From an uncultured Atopobiaceae bacterium (GTDB taxonomy: Bacteria > Actinomycetota > Coriobacteriia > Coriobacteriales > Atopobiaceae), in contig CALUJM010000001.1 in NCBI GenBank assembly GCA_944320975.1, forward strand, positions 124,001 to 188,000: 64,000 nt of DNA, in the 5' to 3' direction. The notes beneath the pieces are model-generated. The model ran no database searches, was not told where the DNA came from, and saw only the letters and a list, made by a program, of their open reading frames with translations. The position numbers and the translations under genes were made by a program. Below, in pieces: positions 35,178 to 47,578 of the stretch (the first letter of the stretch is position 1; every line of letters starts with the position of its first letter).

Positions 35178-35242
35178 AGCGGCAAATGTTTCAACAATGA
35201 GTCGCTTCTCGCCAGAGGCCGCGCGGCCCTGCGAACAAGTCC

Positions 35243-35248
35243 TATAGT
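35243..35248 (+). promoter_or_regulatory. Probable -10 box of the argG leader
   Basis: TATAGT, followed by a perfect CGCGGGC/GCCCGCG stem-loop (35266-35284) in the presumed 5' leader and then the leader peptide start. No clear -35 is seen. Confidence 0.45.
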
Positions 35249-35314
35249 CAGCCACGTCAGACAGCCGCGGGCCAATAGCCCGCGCCCGCTCAACTACTGA
35301 GGAGGCCAACGTTG

Positions 35315-35413
35315 ATGAACGTTCACAGCGCGCACGCGTGCGCCGCCTCCTCCCAGCTCGCCCGACGCCAGATGCGACGAATCTCGCCCGCGATGTCGCG
35401 CGCGACGCTCTAG
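35315..35413 (+). CDS. Arginine-codon-rich leader peptide before argG
   Basis: A 32-codon reading frame with GAGGAGG upstream of ATG 35315, ending at TAG 35411. Its second half reads LARRQMRRISPAMSRATL: five Arg codons, among them three CGA, while neighbouring genes overwhelmingly use CGC. Downstream (35448-35465) GCCCCG/CGGGGC forms a hairpin followed by ATTCTTGT, just before argG. The arrangement fits ribosome-mediated attenuation of argG by arginyl-tRNA supply (inference). Confidence 0.55.
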   Translation: MNVHSAHACAASSQLARRQMRRISPAMSRATL

Positions 35414-35447
35414 CTTGACGGTTCTTCTCGACAGACCGAGCTCCTGC

Positions 35448-35473
35448 GCCCCGCGACGTCGGGGCATTCTTGT
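35448..35473 (+). terminator. Possible attenuator hairpin before argG
   Basis: GCCCCG and CGGGGC pair around CGACGT and are followed by ATTCTTGT. It is a weak intrinsic terminator alone, but its position between an Arg-rich leader peptide and argG is what attenuation needs. Confidence 0.4.
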
Positions 35474-35511
35474 GTAGACGCATCCAACACCCAGAAGCGA
35501 AAGGGAACATC

Positions 35512-36741
<1,230 letters not shown>

Positions 36742-36771
36742 GGCACCGGCGCCGACAACGTTGCGTGCTGT

Positions 36772-36806
36772 GGCCGGCCGAGGATGCCCTCGGCCGGCCC
36801 TTCTTT
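36772..36806 (+). terminator. Terminator after argG
   Basis: Perfect 12-bp stem GGCCGGCCGAGG/CCTCGGCCGGCC with an ATGC loop, then CTTCTTT. It directly precedes the left 130-bp repeat. Confidence 0.85.
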
Positions 36807-36807
36807 G

Positions 36808-36937
36808 CGCGCTCGGCGCGAGGTTTGGCGGGGTGCTCGGAAATTAGTTCGCATTGGGAACCTGAAAATGAGGGACTGCCGGGAAAAGCCCAGTTGACGC
36901 GGACGGGCGTCACTTCCAATGCGAACTAATTTCCGGG
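36808..36937. repeat. Left 130-bp direct repeat bounding the argG-argH island
   Basis: 127 of 130 bases match 43392-43521 in the same orientation. Positions 36838-36935 form a 98-base element whose ends are a perfect 20-base inverted repeat (CGGAAATTAGTTCGCATTGG and its complement). The extra 30 bases on the left are also shared. No target duplication is visible. A MITE- or REPIN-like element is likely. Confidence 0.92.
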
Positions 36938-37031
36938 GATGCCGGGAAGACCGTCCACGGAGCGCTCGATAAGGCCTGGGTGGAGAAGCGGCTACCATAG
37001 GGTAAAGCGTTATTTCCGGTCGGAGGTCCCC

Positions 37032-39575
37032 ATGAGCGGCGGTCGCTATATGGATCTTGCGCGCAAGCCCCTCTGGTATGTCGTGCTGGTGCTATCGCTC
37101 GGGCTTCCGCACCATACCTGGGCCCTCTCCGTTGCCGATTCTGAGCTCGCCCTGTCTGCATGCGGTCCCTATGCGCCAGCTACACTCCTTGGAGTTGTGT
37201 CGGGGGTTGCGGTAGCGGCTCGTCTTCGTGATTGTGCCAAACATGGGCGAGGTTCGGCGCCTCGGGTTTCGTCGGGCTTAGCAATTGCGGCGCTCATCTG
37301 TGGTTTCGCGCTTGCCGTCGAGTCCATATTGGGTCTGACGATGGGCAGCCACGGCGCCCTCTTCGCTCGGTTCCAGGGGGCGATTCCTGTTCTTTGCTTT
37401 GTTGCCTCGGGGACGGGGACGGAGGTCCTATTCGAGACGGAGATGTGCCCGCGCGGCTCTTTTGAGGCCGGCAAGCCTTCTTCTTTGAGACTGCTGATTG
37501 CTGCGGTCGCTTCGGGCGGCATTGCTCTGTTTTGGGGCTGGGCACTTGTGGACGGGTGGCTTCTTCCGGAAAGCCCCCGTGGGTTGCTGCTCGCGGCATC
37601 GCTGCTCGCGGCACTTTTGGCGTCCCTCTCGGTTACTCGGCTGGCGCGCTCCGGCCTTTCTTCGGTTTCTCTGCGGGAGATCTCCCGGTCGGCCGCCTTG
37701 GGCGTCATCTTTTCCTGCGTCGCATCTGAGTTCTACGGCCTGCGCTCAACGGCCTCATCCTGGCTGATCCGACTCGCCCCGCTCGTTGTGGTGTTTGTTT
37801 GCTGGGCGGCCGACCGCCACAGTCTGCGACGCTCGCAACGTGCCGCGTTGTCCATCTGCAGCGATGCTAACTTTGCCACTCCGCCATCGGGAGTCCCCTT
37901 TAACGACCTGCCTAATCGCGAGCGCGAGGCAATCGAAGGGGCTCTAGGGGGACTCACGTCGGCCCAGATTGCCGACCGTCTCGGAATCAAGCCGGCAACA
38001 GTCCGAAGCTATCTGCAGCGCGCGTACAGGAAGCTCGGCGTGACATCCCTCAGGGAGCTTCGCGGGGCCATGGGGATGGATGACGATGAGGACTCACCGT
38101 CGACTCAGGGACAAAAGGACGGTGTTCACATCCGTCCCGGCAACGCGCTCATCTGCCGCGTCAATGCGTGCGGGTGGTTACTCATGGTTGCCCTTCTCGC
38201 ACTTTCCCCGCGCGTGGGGGCGGGCGCGTGTCGTGAGGCGGCGGTGCTCGGCATCGGCGTGGGTTTGCTTGTGAGCGGGGTCGCACTTCCGGCTCCGAAG
38301 TGCCGCGCCGCGCTCGTGATCTCCGCGCCGATTCCGGCTATTCTTGTCGGCCTGGGGTTCGTCGGCCCGCTGCAGCTCGCCCTCTTTGAGCTGACCGGTG
38401 CTGACATTGGTGTTCCTGAGGCCAGCCTCCTGTTCTTATTTCCCGCATTTCTTGTTCTGGGCTTCATGCTTCCCAGGGCGCTTTCTCTGCTGGCGGGCGA
38501 TTCTCGGGGAACGGACGGCGGATGTCCCGCTCGGGTGGAGCCCCTTGTCGTATCCGCCCTATTCTTTATTGCGCGCACCTCTGACCAGGCCTGGGTGGCA
38601 GTTGTTGCGATCTTATGGCTTGTCACCCTGGCCTCGACCGTCTTTCTGGCTGTCCAAGCTGCCGATGGAGGGAAGGGCGCTTCGGTGCGCACTCTCTCCC
38701 GGGCTCCTCGTTGCGCTGATGATTCGCCGTCACCCTTGAGCGGTGCCGCCTTGTTTGCATTTGCGTTTGGGTGCAGCCGCATGGCGATAGGCTCGGACGG
38801 TGCCGCGCCGACCCTTGTCTCGGTAATGCTTTTCGTTGTATGCGCCGCATGCTGTCTTGTCGCCGCCGCCCCGCTTGGTTGGACGGACCTTGCCTACCTG
38901 TGCTCCTGTGCGTCCCTCTTTGGCCTGGGAATTCTTGTGTATCCGCTTGGGGTGTCGGCGCCTCGTGACCTTCTGCCCACTGCCCTCTGCGCTGCATCGG
39001 CGTTCCTGCTCCTTGCCGGAGCCAGGGGGCTGCCGAGGCGCGAGCCGGCCATATTGCCGAGGTCTAGCGCAGCACCAATCGGCTTGGGGCTTCTTTCCGG
39101 CCATGCCCTCTCTAAGTTCTATTGGATAGAGGAAGTCGTCACACAGGCGAATCCAACGGGCCAGATCGCCCTGCCATCCCCTGAGAGTCTTGCTCACGAC
39201 GCGGTGCCCTTCATTGTCTACGTTGCTGGCATTGCTGCGTGCGGGGTTCTGATTGCTTTAAAGGTTCGTGAGTCAAGCCCCGCTCGCAAGGCCCTTTTCC
39301 GGGAAGCCGGAGGCGAACAGCAGCTCGATTGCCTGCTCCGTCTTGGGCTCTCAGAAACCGAGGCTCGGGTTCTCGTCGAGATCACTCGTGGACTCAGCGG
39401 TCGGGAGATAGCCGAGAAGCTTTCGTATGCGATTGGAACTGTCAACGCGGCGCGATATCGTGGGTACCGTAAGTTGGGAATTAACAGCCGGCATGAGCTC
39501 ATCTCGATGGTTGGCGAGATGCGCCGTGGTTGCGATTTAGGGTCAGACGGTGGGGGCGGGAGCGATGGAGCATAG
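37032..39575 (+). CDS. Membrane regulator with two LuxR-type DNA-binding domains
   Basis: 847 residues built as two consecutive halves, each several membrane helices followed by a LuxR-type HTH. HTH1 is at about 292-350 (LPNREREAIEGALGGLTSAQ then RSYLQRAYRKLGV). HTH2 is at about 771-830 (LSETEARVLVEITRGLSGRE then YRGYRKLGINSRHEL). No receiver or ligand domain is seen. Single-HTH membrane LuxR proteins are common in Coriobacteriia; a double one is unusual. ATG 37032 has GGAGGT upstream; the frame is open back into the repeat. Base use is visibly less GC-biased than the flanks. It likely controls the following protease genes. Confidence 0.8.
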   Translation: MSGGRYMDLARKPLWYVVLVLSLGLPHHTWALSVADSELALSACGPYAPATLLGVVSGVAVAARLRDCAKHGRGSAPRVSSGLAIAALICGFALAVESILGLTMGSHGALFARFQGAIPVLCFVASGTGTEVLFETEMCPRGSFEAGKPSSLRLLIAAVASGGIALFWGWALVDGWLLPESPRGLLLAASLLAALLASLSVTRLARSGLSSVSLREISRSAALGVIFSCVASEFYGLRSTASSWLIRLAPLVVVFVCWAADRHSLRRSQRAALSICSDANFATPPSGVPFNDLPNREREAIEGALGGLTSAQIADRLGIKPATVRSYLQRAYRKLGVTSLRELRGAMGMDDDEDSPSTQGQKDGVHIRPGNALICRVNACGWLLMVALLALSPRVGAGACREAAVLGIGVGLLVSGVALPAPKCRAALVISAPIPAILVGLGFVGPLQLALFELTGADIGVPEASLLFLFPAFLVLGFMLPRALSLLAGDSRGTDGGCPARVEPLVVSALFFIARTSDQAWVAVVAILWLVTLASTVFLAVQAADGGKGASVRTLSRAPRCADDSPSPLSGAALFAFAFGCSRMAIGSDGAAPTLVSVMLFVVCAACCLVAAAPLGWTDLAYLCSCASLFGLGILVYPLGVSAPRDLLPTALCAASAFLLLAGARGLPRREPAILPRSSAAPIGLGLLSGHALSKFYWIEEVVTQANPTGQIALPSPESLAHDAVPFIVYVAGIAACGVLIALKVRESSPARKALFREAGGEQQLDCLLRLGLSETEARVLVEITRGLSGREIAEKLSYAIGTVNAARYRGYRKLGINSRHELISMVGEMRRGCDLGSDGGGGSDGA

Positions 39576-40473
39576 TGAAGAGAGGTCGCATCGGGGAGGG
39601 CGTCGTCATGCTCTGCTTGCCGTAACCCTTCTCGTCCTGGCTCTTGCAGGGACCTTTACGTTTGCAAGGCTCCTCCAGCACGATGATAAGGTCGCGGCTC
39701 AGGCGGCCGGTGAGGACGATGATATTGTCATCATCCGACGATCCTCGATAACCCCTCCTGCGTACTCGCTCGACGAGCTTGTTGAGCGGGCCGACCTTGT
39801 CGTCTCCAGCACGGCGCTCTCTCAGCACGATTCCGTTCTCATCGAGCCCGTTGACGGAGAAGAGGCACGCTTCTTCACCGATGTCGAGTTCAGGGTCGAT
39901 CACGTATACAACGACAAGCTTGATGCCGTCACCGATTCCGCTGGGAGCATAGTCGTCCGCAACGAGGGTGGGAATGGCGAGCATGTTGGAATGGTTGTGG
40001 AAGGCGTGCCTGAGTTCGAGCAGGGCGCTGGTTACCTCCTGTTCCTCTATCGCCTGTTTGATGGGACGCACTACAACGCTGCGGGAGACCATTGGTACGT
40101 TGTTGGTGCTGCGAGCGGCGCGTGGTCGGCGGACGATGACGGGACGTTTTGCTGTCCGTATGAGCTCCCCGAGGGAGGCTCCTTCGCCGATGCCGCCGAG
40201 CTCGAAAGCGTCGTCGAGCGCTTGAGAGACTCTGGGCGGCTTGCCCCCAATCCCGACAGAAGAGACGGGGCGAGCGCCAACCTTGATGAGATTGAGCGGG
40301 CCCACCGCGAGGGAAGGATTCCGGACGGGGTCTATCGAGAGCAGCTCGAGCTTGCGGAGCTCGAAGGGACTGAGTTTGCTCACGTCATGACACCCGAGGA
40401 GCAGGAGGCCTACGAGTTGGGGGCGCTTGGCTCAGCGGGCACGTTAGCGGGATCAGCGTCGAGTTCGAGCTAG
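39565..40473 (+). CDS. Membrane-anchored protein A, paralog of 41274-42167
   Basis: About 302 residues from ATG 39565; a GTG at 39550 is an alternative. The N-terminal membrane anchor LLAVTLLVLALAGTFTFARLL is followed by an extracellular domain with SLDELVERADLVVSSTAL, EARFFTDVEFRVDHVYND and GYLLFLYRLFDGTHYNAAGDHWYVVGAASGAW. The paralog after the protease shares this whole domain. The fold resembles a secreted domain often encoded beside matrixins in my recollection; its function is unknown to me. It overlaps the regulator gene by 11 bases. Confidence 0.7.
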   Translation: MEHSEERSHRGGRRHALLAVTLLVLALAGTFTFARLLQHDDKVAAQAAGEDDDIVIIRRSSITPPAYSLDELVERADLVVSSTALSQHDSVLIEPVDGEEARFFTDVEFRVDHVYNDKLDAVTDSAGSIVVRNEGGNGEHVGMVVEGVPEFEQGAGYLLFLYRLFDGTHYNAAGDHWYVVGAASGAWSADDDGTFCCPYELPEGGSFADAAELESVVERLRDSGRLAPNPDRRDGASANLDEIERAHREGRIPDGVYREQLELAELEGTEFAHVMTPEEQEAYELGALGSAGTLAGSASSSS

Positions 40474-40594
40474 GGCAAGGGCGTGCTCGAGGAGGCATGC
40501 GCGAGGACAGTCTGACAAACTGCATATTCACAGCTCAGAACAGATGCCTCTCACTTGCATAACAATCGCATAGCCGCTGATCGCAGACCTCTCC

Positions 40595-40646
40595 CCGCGG
40601 CGTGACTATGGTATGTCACGTCATGACGGGCGGTAATACGCCGCGG
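40595..40646. promoter_or_regulatory. Nested inverted repeats upstream of the protease gene
   Basis: Perfect 9-base arms CCGCGGCGT (40595-40603) and ACGCCGCGG (40638-40646) enclose a second perfect inverted repeat, CGTGAC-N8-GTCACG (40601-40620). They end 34 bases before the protease GTG. A candidate operator for the LuxR-type regulator or a structured leader. Confidence 0.5.
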
Positions 40647-40680
40647 CGCTGAATTAACTGGTCTACTCGAGGAGGAGATT

Positions 40681-41259
40681 GTGAAGAGTAGGGTTAGGAA
40701 CGCCGTGCTGGTTGCAGCGGTCTATGCGTTGCTGTCGCTCGTCTTTGTTCCTCAGGCGTATGGGTATACACTCACCGGCCAGCATATCGGTGCCGACTTA
40801 TGGTACCGCCCCTATGTAGAGTTTACTGCTGAGTCAAGAGAGGGAATGCGTCAGGCGATGTCCACGTGGAACAAGTATCTGCCAGTTGGGCAGCGGGCTT
40901 GCTTCGACAACACCAGTCATTACCTGACGTCATATCCTCAGAACGATGGGCTGTGCAGGATATATAAGACCCATCTGGGCGACTTCAACTATGTGGCTCA
41001 GAACACTTGGTGGTATAACCCCGCGACTGGGGCAACGTCTTCGTCTGATATCGATATCAACGCTAACTACTCTTGGGCGAACGGGGCTGCGCCGGGGCGC
41101 TATGACGTACAGACAATTGTTCTGCACGAAATTGGACATTCCGTAGGACTTGATCACTCGGGCAATTCTAACGCTGTTATGTATGCCTATGCGTATACGA
41201 ATACAACCAAGAGGTCCCTTCACTCCGACGATATCAATGGTGTCCAGTCAATCTATTAG
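40681..41259 (+). CDS. Secreted matrixin-type zinc metalloprotease
   Basis: 192 residues. A signal peptide covers residues about 1-28 (VLVAAVYALLSLVFVPQAYG). The zinc motif HEIGHSVGLDH at 149-159 has the metzincin spacing HExxHxxGxxH, and the Met-turn is at M167 (NAVMYAY). MSTWNKY near 60 resembles the start of matrixin catalytic domains. No propeptide or cell-wall anchor is evident, so it is small and exported. GTG 40681 has GGAGGAG upstream. It lies between two paralogous anchored proteins. Codon and base use are markedly less GC-rich. Confidence 0.9.
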   Translation: MKSRVRNAVLVAAVYALLSLVFVPQAYGYTLTGQHIGADLWYRPYVEFTAESREGMRQAMSTWNKYLPVGQRACFDNTSHYLTSYPQNDGLCRIYKTHLGDFNYVAQNTWWYNPATGATSSSDIDINANYSWANGAAPGRYDVQTIVLHEIGHSVGLDHSGNSNAVMYAYAYTNTTKRSLHSDDINGVQSIY

Positions 41260-41273
41260 GAAGGGAGATGCTC

Positions 41274-42167
41274 ATGGATCCTAAGGCTAAAAGGCACGCT
41301 GTTGCGGGAGTTGTATGCGGCGTATGTCTCGCTTTGATTGGCGTGGTGGCGTATTGGGCCTCCGCTGGCAATCAGCTGGGCGAGGGGCGAGAGCTTGTCG
41401 GCGATGATTCTGCACCCCTACTCGTTCAGCACGTGTCGGCCGTGCTTCCAGCGTTCTCCGCTGAAGAGCTTGTCGAAAAGTCCGACCTGATCGTCGTGGG
41501 TACCGTGGGAGCGGCATCTGATGCATTCCTCGTTGACCCAGTCGACGAGAGCATGGAGCCGCGATTCTTTACGGACACGAGCGTTCATGTTGATCGGGTC
41601 CTTCTCGGCGACCCAGACTACTCCGGGGAGGTGGATGATGCCATCGCGGTTCGCACCGAAGGGGGCACGGGCGAGCTCATTCAGACGGTCAATGACGGAA
41701 CCCCGAAATTCGAGTCCGGTGACCGATACCTCCTGTTCCTCTGTCAGCTGCAGGACGGGACCTACTACAACACGGAGGGAGACCACTACTACATCATCGG
41801 GGTGAGCACGGGTGCCTGGCCTGAGTCGAGCGGCGGGTCGGACACGTTTGATAGCCCGTGCTGGCAGGCCGAGGGCTCGCAGGACATCTCCATAGACGCG
41901 CTTGAGGACATCATCGCGGCGAAGCCGGCCTCGCTTGGTTCCGAAGGGGATTCGACAAGGCATACCGGCGTGAACGCACGGCTTGATGAGATTGAGTCGG
42001 ACTTCGAGCGGGGCATTATCACCCAGCAGGAGTACGAGTACTGGCTTGACCTCGCGGAACAAGAAGCAACCTCGTACGCGCGCATCTTGACGGAGGACGA
42101 GCAGGCAGCGTACGAGCGGGAGGTCGTTGAGGGGAATCTCGGCGAGTCGGTGAGATCGGGAAGCTAG
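41274..42167 (+). CDS. Membrane-anchored protein B, paralog of 39565-40473
   Basis: About 297 residues. An N-terminal membrane segment VAGVVCGVCLALIGVVAYWA is followed by the shared domain: FSAEELVEKSDLIVVGTVG, EPRFFTDTSVHVDRVLLGD, DRYLLFLCQLQDGTYYNTEG and YYIIGVSTGAW. The C-terminal coiled acidic part (LDEIESDFERGIITQQEYEY) also matches its partner. ATG 41274 has GGGAG six bases upstream. It starts 15 bases after the protease stop, so both are cotranscribed. Inhibitor, substrate or sensor for the protease are all possible. Confidence 0.7.
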   Translation: MDPKAKRHAVAGVVCGVCLALIGVVAYWASAGNQLGEGRELVGDDSAPLLVQHVSAVLPAFSAEELVEKSDLIVVGTVGAASDAFLVDPVDESMEPRFFTDTSVHVDRVLLGDPDYSGEVDDAIAVRTEGGTGELIQTVNDGTPKFESGDRYLLFLCQLQDGTYYNTEGDHYYIIGVSTGAWPESSGGSDTFDSPCWQAEGSQDISIDALEDIIAAKPASLGSEGDSTRHTGVNARLDEIESDFERGIITQQEYEYWLDLAEQEATSYARILTEDEQAAYEREVVEGNLGESVRSGS

Positions 42168-42216: not shown

Positions 42217-43431
42217 GTGGACAACCAAAAGTGCGAGCAATGTCACGATGCTCCTCTCGGAGGTTATCGGTCAGCCGCGCATAATCAACACGTGGACGGG
42301 CGGATGTTGCTTATGCGGGGAGTGGCGGCGGTTGCGGTCTGTGTTGGCCACGTCAGCCCTATGGAGCTCTCGGGGCCATATGGTTTGTTGCCGCCCTACA
42401 GCTATCAGGTGGCAGCGTTCGTATTCGTATCCGGTTACTTCTATCGAGCGGACAGCGAGCGTCACCCCATTCGGTATGTCGCCCATAGGGCAAGAAGGCT
42501 GCTTCTTCCCCTGCTTGCCGTCAACGCCGTCTATGGCATCATCTGGTGCATCCTGAAAGCGGCGTTCGGGTTCTCCGGCGGAGAGGGGCTCACCGGCCGG
42601 TCAATTCTCATCGATCCACTGGTCTCGGGTAACGGGTTTGTCATCAACGCTTCGATGTGGTTTGTCGCCCCGCTGTTCTTTGCAGAGATCATTTCAATGA
42701 CTCTGCGTGCTCTTGTTCGCCGGCTCGCCCGTCGCCAAACGGACGTGCTGCTATGCCTGGCGTCATTTGTGGCCGGGGGCTATGTTGTCTCGGTCGGTGG
42801 TGATGTGGGTCTCGACCCTGGCGTTGAGCTTGCTCTATGCCGCCTCATCTTCTTTTTGCCGTGGTTCAATCTGGGACAGCTCTACAAGACGTTTCTTGAG
42901 AAGCATGATGTCCTTCCGAATTCCACGGTTATGCTCGGAGCGCTTCTGGGGCAGCTGGCGGTGACGTTCGTGGCGGGTGAGCCCGTCGTGTACAACGTCG
43001 CGTGGTGCCGATTCTATCATGGACCCGCGCTCACCTACATAACTACCCTCCTCTCCCTCGCATTTGTTTTGCGGCTCTGCAGAATCTGCGGCTCACTTCT
43101 GGAAGGATTGCCGCTTATGCGGACGATTGGGGCGAACTCGTTTAGCGTCATGTGCCACCATCAGGCGGGCTACCTTCTCCTCACTGCAATCGTTGTGGCG
43201 ACACGTCTCGTGCTCGGCGTGCCGGCTAAGTTTGACTTTGCTGGCCTGCTTGCGCATCCGACCACCTCCTTTGTGATGCTGGATGAGCTTCCTCAGTTCG
43301 CTCTCGTGTACGTCATGGTCGGAGTCGCGTTCTCGCTCGCCATACATGCCGTTTGGCGGCGCCTTGAGGGCGGGCTGCGCAGCTGTTTGACCGCGCTCGG
43401 CGCGGGGTTTGGCGGGGTGCTCGGAAATTAG
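42217..43431 (+). CDS. Membrane acyltransferase 3 family protein
   Basis: 404 residues with about ten membrane helices: MLLMRGVAAVAVCVGHVSPM (catalytic-type His), AAFVFVSGYFYR, and NASMWFVAPLFFAEI, as in OafA/WecH-like acyltransferases. It would acylate a cell-surface glycan. GTG 42217 has GGGAGG upstream. The last 13 codons and the stop lie inside the right 130-bp repeat, so the C-terminus was supplied or altered by that element. Confidence 0.8.
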   Translation: MDNQKCEQCHDAPLGGYRSAAHNQHVDGRMLLMRGVAAVAVCVGHVSPMELSGPYGLLPPYSYQVAAFVFVSGYFYRADSERHPIRYVAHRARRLLLPLLAVNAVYGIIWCILKAAFGFSGGEGLTGRSILIDPLVSGNGFVINASMWFVAPLFFAEIISMTLRALVRRLARRQTDVLLCLASFVAGGYVVSVGGDVGLDPGVELALCRLIFFLPWFNLGQLYKTFLEKHDVLPNSTVMLGALLGQLAVTFVAGEPVVYNVAWCRFYHGPALTYITTLLSLAFVLRLCRICGSLLEGLPLMRTIGANSFSVMCHHQAGYLLLTAIVVATRLVLGVPAKFDFAGLLAHPTTSFVMLDELPQFALVYVMVGVAFSLAIHAVWRRLEGGLRSCLTALGAGFGGVLGN

Positions 43432-43521
43432 TTCGCATTGGGAACCTGAAAAAGAGGGACTGCCGAGAAAAGCCCAGTTGACGCGGACGGGCGTCACTTC
43501 CAATGCGAACTAATTTCCGGG
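43392..43521. repeat. Right 130-bp direct repeat bounding the island
   Basis: Same orientation and 127/130 identical to 36808-36937. Its 98-base core (43422-43519) has the same perfect 20-base inverted ends. It contributes the end of the acyltransferase gene. Confidence 0.92.
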
Positions 43522-43526
43522 ACCCC

Positions 43527-44627
43527 TCAGTAGTCCCCGAGCGACCGCCCGCCCGTCCAGGGGTAAAGCGACCAGATGAGCTGCTGCCTCTTTGCCGAGA
43601 GCCGCTTATCGAGCGCGCGGCGCACGCGAGCGCCCTCCTCGCCACTGCGCCCGGTGAGCCGCTCCGCCGCGAGGACCGCCTCGAGGATAACCGTGTCGAG
43701 CCCTCCGTATTCCATGAGGTCCTCTGCCACGACGGGCATGACGATGCGCCCGCCTGCAAGCAGCTCTCGATTGCGCCGCAGGTCATCGACGTACTTCTCC
43801 CGTACTTCCGCGAGCGCCGCCTTGATTTCTCCCGCGCTTTGAGTCTCCACCGGAATCGAGCCGAGGTCGAGGTGCCCGCGGCCGTCGTAGTTGAAGCCCA
43901 CGGGCAGATTCGCCAGCCCGATGTCGGGCACGCGCGACCCCCTCACGCCTCTCCGCTTGAGCTCGCCCGGCGTGTTCTCCCTTTCGTTGAGGACGAGTTC
44001 CCCGATGCCGTATCCGCCCTCATTCTGGGGCCGAACGAGCAGCAGCGCCACGATCGCCTCCATCGCGGACCACGCGTCGTCGCGAACGCGCTCGATTGCT
44101 CGCCATGCCGCGCCAAGCCCGCGAATGCCGGTGCATCTCGACAGGTAATCCTTGATTTTCTGAACGCTGGTAAGGGGGCTTAGCCCGTGGGTGACCCCTC
44201 CCGTGCGCGGGTTTGCGGGATCCCGCGAGAAGGTCCCGCAGAGCTCGTAGCCCACAAGCTCGAGCGCCGCCGGGTCCATGACGGACGCAAGCTCGAGGAA
44301 CAGCAGCTCGGGGCAGGGAATCGTGAACTCGCTCGAGACGCGTGCGAACGACCCTGCTGGCAGTCCGTCTCCGTAGACGGTCATGCGGAAGAAGCGCGCC
44401 CGCGAGCGCGACCCGGGATCTGGGACAGCGACTTCGATGGGCCTCTGCGCGTCGGGTCGTCCGGAGCGTCCAAGTTGCTGGTAGGGAATGATCCTTGTGC
44501 TCCACCGCAGCTGGGGCCAAGGGTCCGGCGAGGGGACGCCGCAAGGTTCATGATCGAGGGGCTCGCCGGTCGATCGCAGCCACCTTAAAAGAGCCAAGGC
44601 AGTTAATCTGTTAACGCATAGATGCAA
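43527..44627 (-). CDS. Coriobacterial protein with VSR/DUF559-like C-terminal part
   Basis: 366 residues. The middle has CPELLFLELASVMDPAALEL and VGYELCGTFSRDP. The C-terminal half has DAWSAMEAIVALLLV, then PDIGLANLPVGFNYDGRGHLD, whose spacing recalls the restriction-like DUF559/VSR fold (SP-E-LL...DL...VEYDG). Catalytic residues are not certain. Start is TTG 44627 with GAGGAAG six bases upstream. It faces the island and argH from the opposite strand. Nuclease or toxin-antitoxin-like roles are guesses. Confidence 0.6.
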   Translation of the reverse strand: MHLCVNRLTALALLRWLRSTGEPLDHEPCGVPSPDPWPQLRWSTRIIPYQQLGRSGRPDAQRPIEVAVPDPGSRSRARFFRMTVYGDGLPAGSFARVSSEFTIPCPELLFLELASVMDPAALELVGYELCGTFSRDPANPRTGGVTHGLSPLTSVQKIKDYLSRCTGIRGLGAAWRAIERVRDDAWSAMEAIVALLLVRPQNEGGYGIGELVLNERENTPGELKRRGVRGSRVPDIGLANLPVGFNYDGRGHLDLGSIPVETQSAGEIKAALAEVREKYVDDLRRNRELLAGGRIVMPVVAEDLMEYGGLDTVILEAVLAAERLTGRSGEEGARVRRALDKRLSAKRQQLIWSLYPWTGGRSLGDY

Positions 44628-44799
44628 CGATAGCTTCCTCAGATGAAATCAATTAATGTAAAGGCATTCTAATATATATTCAACAAAATCAATCTATAAA
44701 ACTAAGAAATTTTGCTATCCAGCAAAGTTTGCGAACTCCTTACGGACGCAAACCTCCTTTGGTAAGCTAGACGCGGCAAAACACGAGGAAGGAGCCGGC
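44628..44799. other. AT-rich divergent gap before argH
   Basis: 172 bases, far more AT-rich than anything nearby. It contains a weak ArgR-box-like palindrome (44666-44683, ATTCTAATATATATTCAA on the plus strand) and a GTTTGC/GCAAAC inverted repeat (about 44727-44753). GAGGAAGGAG precedes argH. Regulation by ArgR is possible but unproven; no argR gene is in the window. Confidence 0.4.
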
Positions 44800-46191
44800 A
44801 TGGCGCTGTGGGGCGGTAGGTTCGAGAAGGGCGTGGACGCGTTCACGCAGGAGTTCGGCGCGAGCCTCGAGGTCGACAAGGCAATGGCCGCCCAGGACAT
44901 CGCGGGCAGCCGCGCCCATGCGCGCATGCTCGCCGAGCAGGGCATCATCTCCGCCGACGACCAGGTCGCCATCGACGAGGGCCTCGAGCGCATCGCCGGC
45001 CAGATCGCGGACGGCACCTTCGTCTGGGACGTCAACGACGAGGACGTCCACATGGCCGTCGAGGGCGCCCTCACGCGCGACATCGGCACCCCCGGCGCGC
45101 GCCTGCACACCGGCCGCTCCCGCAACGACCAGGTCGCCACCGACATCCGCCTGCTCGCCAAGGACCTCTGCGACCACCTGATCGCCGGCAACGTGGCGCT
45201 GCGCCGCGTCCTGCTCGACGCTGCCGAGAAGAACCTCGACGTCGTGATGCCCGGCTACACGCACCTCCAGCACGCCCAGCCGGTGCTTCTCTCCCACCAC
45301 CTGCTCGCGTACTTCTGGATGTTCGTGCGCGACCATACGCGCCTGGTCGCGGCACGTACGGCCGCCGACGCCAACCCGCTCGGCGCCGCGGCGCTCGCCG
45401 GCACGACCTACCCGCTCGACCGCGCCCGCACCACGGAGCTCCTGGGCTTCTCGCGCACGATCCCCAACTCGCTCGATGCCGTCTCCGACCGCGATTACCT
45501 GCTCGATCTTGAGTACGCCTGTGCCGTCTCCATGATGCACCTCTCGCGTCTCTGCGAGGAGATCGTGCTGTGGAGCTCCACCGAGTTCGGCTTCATCACG
45601 CTCTCCGACGCCTACTCCACCGGCTCCTCGATCATGCCGCAGAAGAAGAACCCGGACTTCGCCGAGCTCACGCGCGGCAAGACCGGACGCGTCTACGGCG
45701 ACCTGATGGCGCTGCTCACTACCATGAAGTCGCTGCCGCTCGCCTACAACAAGGACCTCCAGGAGTGCAAGGAGGGCCCGCTCGACGCCGCGCGCACGCT
45801 CTCCGACTGCATGGAGATCGCTGCCGGCATGATCGAGACCATGACGGTGAACGCCGACGTCATGCTGGCGCAGGCGGGCACGGGCTTCTCGGCCGCCACG
45901 GACGTGGCCGACTACCTGGCCAAGAAGGGGATGCCCTTCCGCGAGGCGCACCGCGTGGTGGGCGAGCTCGTGCTCTACTGCGAGAAGAACGGGAAGGGCC
46001 TCGAGGACCTCACGGCGGAGGAGTTTTCCGCCGCGAGCCCCCTCTTCGGGGCGGATATCGCCCGCGACCTCGACCCGGCGGGCATCGCCAACGCCCGCGT
46101 GACCTACGGCGGAACCGGCCGCGATGCAGTTGTCGTGCAGCTCGGGGAGGCGCGCACCGCGCTCGAGAAGGACGAGGGCGCCCTGCGGTAG
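44800..46191 (+). CDS. argH: Argininosuccinate lyase
   Basis: 463 residues: MALWGGRFEKGVDAFTQEFG, the signature GSSIMPQKKNPD, and TYPLDRARTTELLGF. It splits argininosuccinate to arginine and fumarate. ATG 44800 has GAAGGAG upstream. The stop TAG is part of a TAGAAT box that likely drives purB. Confidence 0.97.
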   Translation: MALWGGRFEKGVDAFTQEFGASLEVDKAMAAQDIAGSRAHARMLAEQGIISADDQVAIDEGLERIAGQIADGTFVWDVNDEDVHMAVEGALTRDIGTPGARLHTGRSRNDQVATDIRLLAKDLCDHLIAGNVALRRVLLDAAEKNLDVVMPGYTHLQHAQPVLLSHHLLAYFWMFVRDHTRLVAARTAADANPLGAAALAGTTYPLDRARTTELLGFSRTIPNSLDAVSDRDYLLDLEYACAVSMMHLSRLCEEIVLWSSTEFGFITLSDAYSTGSSIMPQKKNPDFAELTRGKTGRVYGDLMALLTTMKSLPLAYNKDLQECKEGPLDAARTLSDCMEIAAGMIETMTVNADVMLAQAGTGFSAATDVADYLAKKGMPFREAHRVVGELVLYCEKNGKGLEDLTAEEFSAASPLFGADIARDLDPAGIANARVTYGGTGRDAVVVQLGEARTALEKDEGALR

Positions 46192-46194
46192 AAT
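46189..46194 (+). promoter_or_regulatory. Possible -10 box of purB
   Basis: TAGAAT overlaps the argH stop codon and lies 37 bases before the purB ATG. It is the same hexamer that precedes each tRNA in this window. Confidence 0.45.
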
Positions 46195-46231
46195 CGAGGG
46201 GCACGCAACGCTACCGCCGAGGAGGCCCCGC

Positions 46232-47578
46232 ATGATCGATCGCTACACCCGTCCGGAGATGGGACACATCTTCTCGCTCGAGAACAAGTACCGCATCTGG
46301 CAGGAGATCGAGGTCCTGGCCTGCGAGGCGCACGCCGAGATGGGCAAGGTCGGCATCACGCGCGAGGAGGCCGCCTGGATCCGCGAGCACGCTGACTTCA
46401 ACAAGGACGAGGTAGACGCCATCGAGGCCGTGACCAACCACGACGTCATCGCCTTCCTCACCAACATGGGCGAGTACATCGATCGCGACGTGCCCGAGGG
46501 CGAGCCCAAGCCGTCCCGCTGGGTCCACTTCGGCATGACCTCCTCCGACCTCGGCGACACGGCCCTCTGCTACCAGCTCGTCCAGGCCACCGACATCCTC
46601 ATCGAGGACTGCAAGAAGCTCGGCGAGATCTGCAAGCGCCGTGCCTTCGAGGAGCGCGACACCCTCTGCGTGGGCCGCACCCACGGCATCCACGCCGAGC
46701 CCATGACCTTTGGCATGAAGTTCGGCAGCTGGGCCTGGGAGCTTAAGCGCGACTACGACCGCCTCAAGGACGCTCGCGCCAACGTGGCCTTCGGCGCCAT
46801 CTCCGGCGCTGTGGGCACCTACTCCTCCATCGACCCGTTTGTCGAGGAGTACGTCTGCGAGCACCTGGGCCTGGTCCACGACCCGCTCTCCACTCAGGTC
46901 ATCTCGCGCGACCACCACGCCTACCTCGCCGGCGTCCTGGCGACCACCGCCGCCACCTGCGAGCGCATCGCCACCGAGATCCGCAACCTCCAGAAGACCG
47001 ACACCCTCGAGGCCGAGGAGCCGTTCCGCAAGGGCCAGAAGGGCAGCTCGGCGATGCCGCACAAGCGCAACCCCATCACCGTGGAGAAGGTCTGCGGCCT
47101 TTCCCGCGTGGTGAAGGCCAACGCGCAGGTGGCCTTTGACAACGTGGCTCTCTGGCACGAGCGCGACATCTCCCACAGCTCCGCCGAGCGCGTTGCGCAG
47201 GCCGACAGCTTCATCGCCCTCGACCACATGTTCCAGTGCCTCACCCGCATCGTGGACGGCCTGATCCTCTATCCGGCGCAGATGCTCGCCAACCTCAACA
47301 AGACGCGCGGGCTGATCTTCTCGTCCAAGGTGCTGCTCGCCCTCGTCGAGACCGGCATCACGCGCGAGGAGGCCTACGCCATCGTGCAGGAGAACGCCAT
47401 GGCCACCTGGCGCGAGGTGCAGCAGTGCGCCAGCGGCACCACGTTCCGCGAGAAGCTCGAGGCGGACCCGCGCTGCACCGTGCCGGCAGAGGAGCTCGAC
47501 GCCATCTTCGACCCGCGCGCCTTCCTCACGCGCGCCGGCGTGGTCTTCGACCGCCTGGAGCAGCTGAACTTCGACTAA
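46232..47578 (+). CDS. purB: Adenylosuccinate lyase
   Basis: 448 residues with the fumarase/aspartase signature GSSAMPHKRNP and an N-terminal MIDRYTRPEMGHIFSLENKY. It acts twice in purine synthesis, on SAICAR and adenylosuccinate. GAGGAGG precedes ATG 46232. A homologous-fold lyase, argH, lies just upstream but is not a duplicate. A long hairpin repeat follows. Confidence 0.97.
   Translation: MIDRYTRPEMGHIFSLENKYRIWQEIEVLACEAHAEMGKVGITREEAAWIREHADFNKDEVDAIEAVTNHDVIAFLTNMGEYIDRDVPEGEPKPSRWVHFGMTSSDLGDTALCYQLVQATDILIEDCKKLGEICKRRAFEERDTLCVGRTHGIHAEPMTFGMKFGSWAWELKRDYDRLKDARANVAFGAISGAVGTYSSIDPFVEEYVCEHLGLVHDPLSTQVISRDHHAYLAGVLATTAATCERIATEIRNLQKTDTLEAEEPFRKGQKGSSAMPHKRNPITVEKVCGLSRVVKANAQVAFDNVALWHERDISHSSAERVAQADSFIALDHMFQCLTRIVDGLILYPAQMLANLNKTRGLIFSSKVLLALVETGITREEAYAIVQENAMATWREVQQCASGTTFREKLEADPRCTVPAEELDAIFDPRAFLTRAGVVFDRLEQLNFD

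Follow-up and report, generated by a model that had tools for sequence, protein, structure and literature searches.

Within the 64,000-nucleotide stretch of an uncultured Atopobiaceae genome analysed here (the window), two 130-bp direct repeats on the plus strand, 98% identical to each other (36808-36937, which includes a palindromic element, and 43392-43521), enclose a 6.6-kb cassette comprising an ORF for a LuxR-type regulator, tim1, mtz, tim2 and an acyltransferase gene. The sister genome G009 has an empty site at this place, where one copy of the repeat directly joins the two flanks (L095 9537-9661): window positions 35241-36938 and 43399-47560 match L095 11265-9537 and 9661-5491, respectively. 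The G+C content of the cassette is 0.52-0.62 as compared to 0.67 for the window, and Tim paralogs are absent from the examined genomes of the same genus and family. Given the repeats, the empty sister site, the deviant G+C and this absence from relatives, the cassette was probably gained as a unit, although its loss from the sister by recombination between the repeats would leave an identical picture. The cassette carries no recombinase, and an Rfam scan of 35-46 kb returned no family. Both genomes contain several further, shorter and partial matches to the palindromic element of the repeat (GGAAATTAGTTCGCATTGG...CCAATGCGAACTAATTTCC).

The outermost genes, both on the plus strand, are considered passengers. 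At the right end lies a gene for a membrane protein of the acyltransferase 3 family (42217-43431; PF01757, 1.1e-19). The left one (36939-39575) is an ORF of 878 aa with two copies of the LuxR HTH (PF00196, 4.9e-23, two stretches), one in each half and related to each other; the ORF looks like the product of a tandem duplication and fusion of a membrane LuxR regulator. Each HTH is preceded by a hydrophobic multi-segment region. The ORF is a possible local regulator. It was also considered as a conserved partner of the neighbouring genes and rejected: tblastn found no relative at any of the other Tim/Mtz loci retrieved, and its place as an intrinsic part of the system, as proposed in an earlier note on this DNA, is not supported.

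The matrixin and its two neighbours

Between these passengers lie the three ORFs of the earlier note, all at the coordinates given. The central one, mtz (40681-41259, plus strand), starts with a GTG codon at 40681 and encodes 192 aa. Its product has a signal peptide ending near AYG28, the zinc motif HEIGHSVGLDH at residues 149-159, the Met-turn at M167 and a PF00413 match of 8e-18, above the gathering cut-off; these are the features of a secreted metzincin, as had been proposed. It is the single PF00413 match in the 2.32-Mb assembly. The mature protein of about 164 aa amounts to a bare catalytic domain, with neither a prodomain nor a cysteine switch. The best structural match of its AlphaFold model (pLDDT 71.9) is karilysin, followed by MMPs, and the potempin A-karilysin structure 8b2q is also among the fold matches. 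Judged by motif, PF00413 and fold match, the mtz product is an M10 matrixin.

On either side lie tim1 (39565-40473, plus strand, 302 aa) and tim2 (41268-42167, plus strand). Their products share 37% identity over 276 aa (E 1e-52) and do have one domain in common, as the earlier note had stated. Scans with Pfam and NCBIfam of both paralogs and 11 relatives matched no family. Both proteins begin with a hydrophobic N-terminal segment, and the part of the earlier claim concerning an N-terminal membrane anchor is sound to this extent. The anchors look transmembrane, a type assigned by eye; in Tim2, however, the sequence ASA/G (32-35) could instead be a signal-peptidase site. The only cysteines of Tim1 are at 196-197, with none near the start of the domain.

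Cotranscription of these genes, also part of the earlier proposal, is plausible: the regulator ORF overlaps the start of tim1 at its 3' end, only 8 bp separate mtz from tim2, and no terminator-like site was found on the plus strand between the genes. The gap of 207 bp between tim1 and mtz, however, makes a separate promoter possible. A recent local duplication as the origin of the two Tims is not supported: tim2 groups, if weakly (85/84), with a Tim from another family (L072), and tim1 branches apart.

Predicted fold of the Tim domain

Several searches with the Tim domain brought little. Single-protein tblastn yielded no useful match among plasmids and phages, a scan of viral contigs gave no match, PDB sequence searches gave chance-level matches only, a scan of the genome contigs with profile A3 returned only two already known loci, and a fold search of viral models found nothing below 1e-3. 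An alignment of 22 family members, tim1 among them (profile A4), provided the input for an AlphaFold2 model of Tim2 with a mean pLDDT of 84.5. The top 20 Foldseek matches of this model are NtA, TIMPs and one other NTR domain, with agrin NtA and TIMP-2/TIMP-1 in the lead. VIA-align likewise gives Z scores of 9.9-10.9 for agrin NtA and 8.4-9.3 for the best N-TIMP-1, -2 and -3 chains, followed by the NTR domains of complement C3/C4/C5 with Z about 7. Residues 58-221 of the model superpose on residues 1-125 of N-TIMP, i.e., on the whole N-TIMP domain. Since NtA, TIMP and NTR domains rank at the top of these searches, the Tim domain is predicted to adopt an NTR-type OB fold over its entire length. 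It is followed in the model by three C-terminal helices (235-247, 253-268 and 276-297); this helical region, also attributed to Tim1, is found in the members from Coriobacteriales and missing from compact members of other classes.

The locus would thus resemble the animal MMP-TIMP systems (N-TIMP/NTR, PF00965/PF01759) in combining a matrixin with a TIMP-fold partner, matched over the whole N-TIMP domain at Z about 9. The parts that TIMPs insert into the MMP cleft are the first segment of the domain and the loop following the third strand; the N-terminal Cys-X-Cys of a TIMP proper chelates the zinc. In contrast, neither Cys-X-Cys nor the conserved disulfides are present in Tim1, Tim2 or their relatives in the 22-member alignment, and the N-terminus of the Tims would be tethered. 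Sequence similarity to TIMPs is undetectable (Pfam TIMP/NTR models do not match Tim sequences up to E 1, nor do the PDB sequence searches reveal it). With the cysteines missing and no such similarity, the domain is called TIMP-like rather than TIMP. TIMPs are natural inhibitors of the human collagen-cutting enzymes to which the matrixin is related; inhibition of the latter by the Tims is inferred. Among the best conserved residues are R129 (21/22), G132 (19/22) and G133 (21/22), which sit where the loop after the third strand begins; their conservation fits a role in binding but may equally be structural. The Tim segment aligned to TIMP residues 1-5 is only moderately conserved.

The matrixin-Tim gene pair in other genomes

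The Tim domain was sought independently of matrixins, and found in other Actinomycetota, in 396 genomes of the phylum, 397 of the order and 36 of another class, and the matrixin profile A5 was then run over all Tim stretches retrieved. At 19 other distinct contig loci, the Tim gene has directly on its 5' side a matrixin gene of the same strand, which in some cases has decayed; in two of these (G411:C112 and G117:C19) it is only a short remnant (E 6e-3). The order is reversed in one locus (L053/L105, G384:C39), in which Tim lies 5' of a large, roughly 876-residue reading frame that contains the matrixin. At another 13 Tim loci, no matrixin lies within the sequence read, a stretch of only about 1.5 kb in some cases, and two (G661 and G749:C88) were excluded from the count since their Tim gene is incomplete. 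The recurrent association of this domain with matrixins, on which the earlier note had made its proposal hinge, is thus present at 20 of the 33 usable Tim loci, against a chance expectation of about 0.01 neighbours of this kind (a figure based on a rough count of 200 or so matrixin matches in the 396 genomes). Along 22 long Tim loci (289 kb), matches to the matrixin profile are confined to the genes adjoining Tim. When the phylum's matrixin loci are taken as the starting point, a Tim gene is next to 9 of the 29 best ones. The pair keeps its order and strand in several families and in at least two classes. This recurrence argues against chance pairing. Of all loci seen, the window alone has its matrixin flanked by a Tim on either side.

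At four loci, the protease has decayed while the adjacent Tim is intact: L080 4256-4954, L024 6041-6628, L023 9780-10433 and L020 10449-11054, with the damaged zinc motifs HQVGHTVGLAN, EEVGHAIGLAH, HESGHTLRLDR and a stop codon at the position of the catalytic Glu, respectively. As the loci come largely from draft or metagenome assemblies, some of the broken genes may reflect errors of assembly. Two tandem Tim genes of the lipoprotein type are found at L075 6140-7990, with no matrixin within the stretch read.

The only experimentally described pair of this kind is that of Listeria (LMRG_00713/00714), which consists of the secreted metzincin Mtz and the TIMP-like lipoprotein Tim (PMC8235301). 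Mtz removes about 50 N-terminal residues of Tim, which is found in the medium, and their co-expression sensitises cells to lysins and penicillin; Tim cleavage, which needs the catalytic Glu, and all lysis phenotypes require catalytically active Mtz (PMC8235301). Similar pairs were noticed by the same authors in Bacillus, Brevibacillus, Lysinibacillus and Clostridium (PMC8235301). Profile A4 matches the Listeria phage Tim (L084:907-1578) at E 6.1e-7, whereas the best value among 2000 shuffled versions of this sequence is 0.042, both E-values being for a small database that consists of the sequence and these shuffled versions; hhalign of the Tim profile gives a probability of 84%, and P0002 matches the phage Mtz at 1e-3. 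The mtz-tim order in Listeria is that of mtz and tim2 here, adjoining and on the same strand. With the profile match and gene order in agreement, sequence comparison places the window locus among Mtz-Tim modules of the Listeria kind, with two Tim genes. The earlier idea of a self-contained surface protease system therefore holds in substance, but not with the LuxR-type regulator as an intrinsic part. Its guess that the flanking proteins are inhibitors, substrates, receptors or presenters is likewise strengthened, both by the predicted TIMP/NTR fold and by homology to the Listeria Tim, an experimentally shown substrate (PMC8235301).

Both modules have a secreted metzincin lacking a prodomain, followed by a TIMP-like surface protein, and both reside on mobile or foreign DNA. 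In contrast to Listeria, the matrixin here is also preceded by a Tim, 37% identical to the one that follows, the anchors look transmembrane whereas the Listeria Tim has a lipobox, the Tims carry a C-terminal helical extension, and a LuxR-type ORF takes the place of the XRE/phage switch. New features are thus the two Tims flanking one protease, the apparently transmembrane anchors, the helical extension and the repeat-bounded cassette.

Possible roles of the Tim proteins

The reading that we favour, with moderate confidence, is that the Tims hold and restrain the matrixin at the surface of their own cell and may be shed when it cuts their stalks. The enzyme would be secreted already active, and a matrixin devoid of a prodomain needs another brake, which suggests a role in self-protection. 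Each Tim would be tethered outside the membrane by its N-terminus, presenting the TIMP-fold domain, and would dock on the active-site cleft via the TIMP edge, i.e., the segment at the domain start and the loop after the third strand. Enzyme passing the membrane would be captured in this way and the cell's own surface spared from cutting. By analogy with the Listeria Mtz, the matrixin may also cut the Tim stalk and free Tim or a Tim-enzyme complex, and the two diverged Tims would probably confer two affinities or fates. A comparable arrangement is known from Tannerella forsythia, where potempins are lipoprotein inhibitors encoded beside the KLIKK proteases, including the matrixin karilysin (PMC7296668). 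There too, a surface lipoprotein gene adjoins that of the protease inhibited (PotA-karilysin, 8b2q), and the matrixin of the window finds its best structural match in karilysin; however, the phylum is another one and each protease has a single potempin, encoded upstream. Although PotA is absent from the ranked sequence and fold matches of Tim, such a ranked list does not exclude likeness. Potempins of the PotA type are also OB folds.

Against docking and inhibition stand the tethered N-terminus, the missing TIMP cysteines and disulfides, the moderate conservation of the segment aligned to TIMP residues 1-5, the 13 Tim loci without a matrixin and the broken active sites of several partner matrixins; moreover, the Listeria Tim acts as a substrate and effector (PMC8235301). 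This last point leads to a possible, though distinctly tentative, alternative in which Tim is mainly a substrate: the matrixin would cut the stalk and the freed TIMP-like domain act on the cell wall or on neighbours, the two Tims being two effectors. The Tims here are homologous to the Listeria Tim, for which this was modelled and whose cleavage and lysis phenotypes need active Mtz, and some occur without a matrixin. However, the Listeria Tim is a lipoprotein of phage-linked loci, lysis genes are absent here, an enzyme-binding module is the simplest reading of a TIMP fold next to a matrixin, and some partner matrixins have lost catalytic residues next to an intact Tim.

More doubtful is a cleavage-licensed inhibitor, in which a stalk cut just before the position of TIMP residue 1 would yield a zinc-chelating N-terminus, so that the output of the protease makes its own inhibitor and Tim1 and Tim2 set two thresholds. 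The argument for it is that a free N-terminus at this position would exist only after the cut; cleavage of the Listeria Tim maps to residues 49-55 (PMC8235301), close to the start of its domain. It is unlikely that Tim serves as a surface receptor displaying the active, unblocked matrixin for the degradation of host or dietary proteins: an anchor, a predicted binding domain and, in Coriobacteriales, the helical extension would suit this role, but the fold resembles inhibitor and NTR modules, and we know of no matrixin presenter with an NTR/TIMP-type fold. Least probable of all is that the Tims are unrelated NTR/OB-fold surface proteins travelling with matrixins in cassettes without any contact, as the matrixin-less loci and the varied functions of NTR domains (agrin, complement, PCOLCE) might suggest, since order and strand are kept across families and classes and in Listeria, where Mtz does cleave Tim.

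A partnership known by experiment from Listeria only is thus extended to Actinomycetota, including gut-type Coriobacteriales, and the Tim family now has a profile of its sequences and a fold predicted with confidence. The locus offers a natural system of one protease and two Tims, in which the roles of inhibitor, substrate and presenter can be separated. It also bears on whether pairs of matrixin and TIMP-fold regulator predate the animals or have more than one origin.
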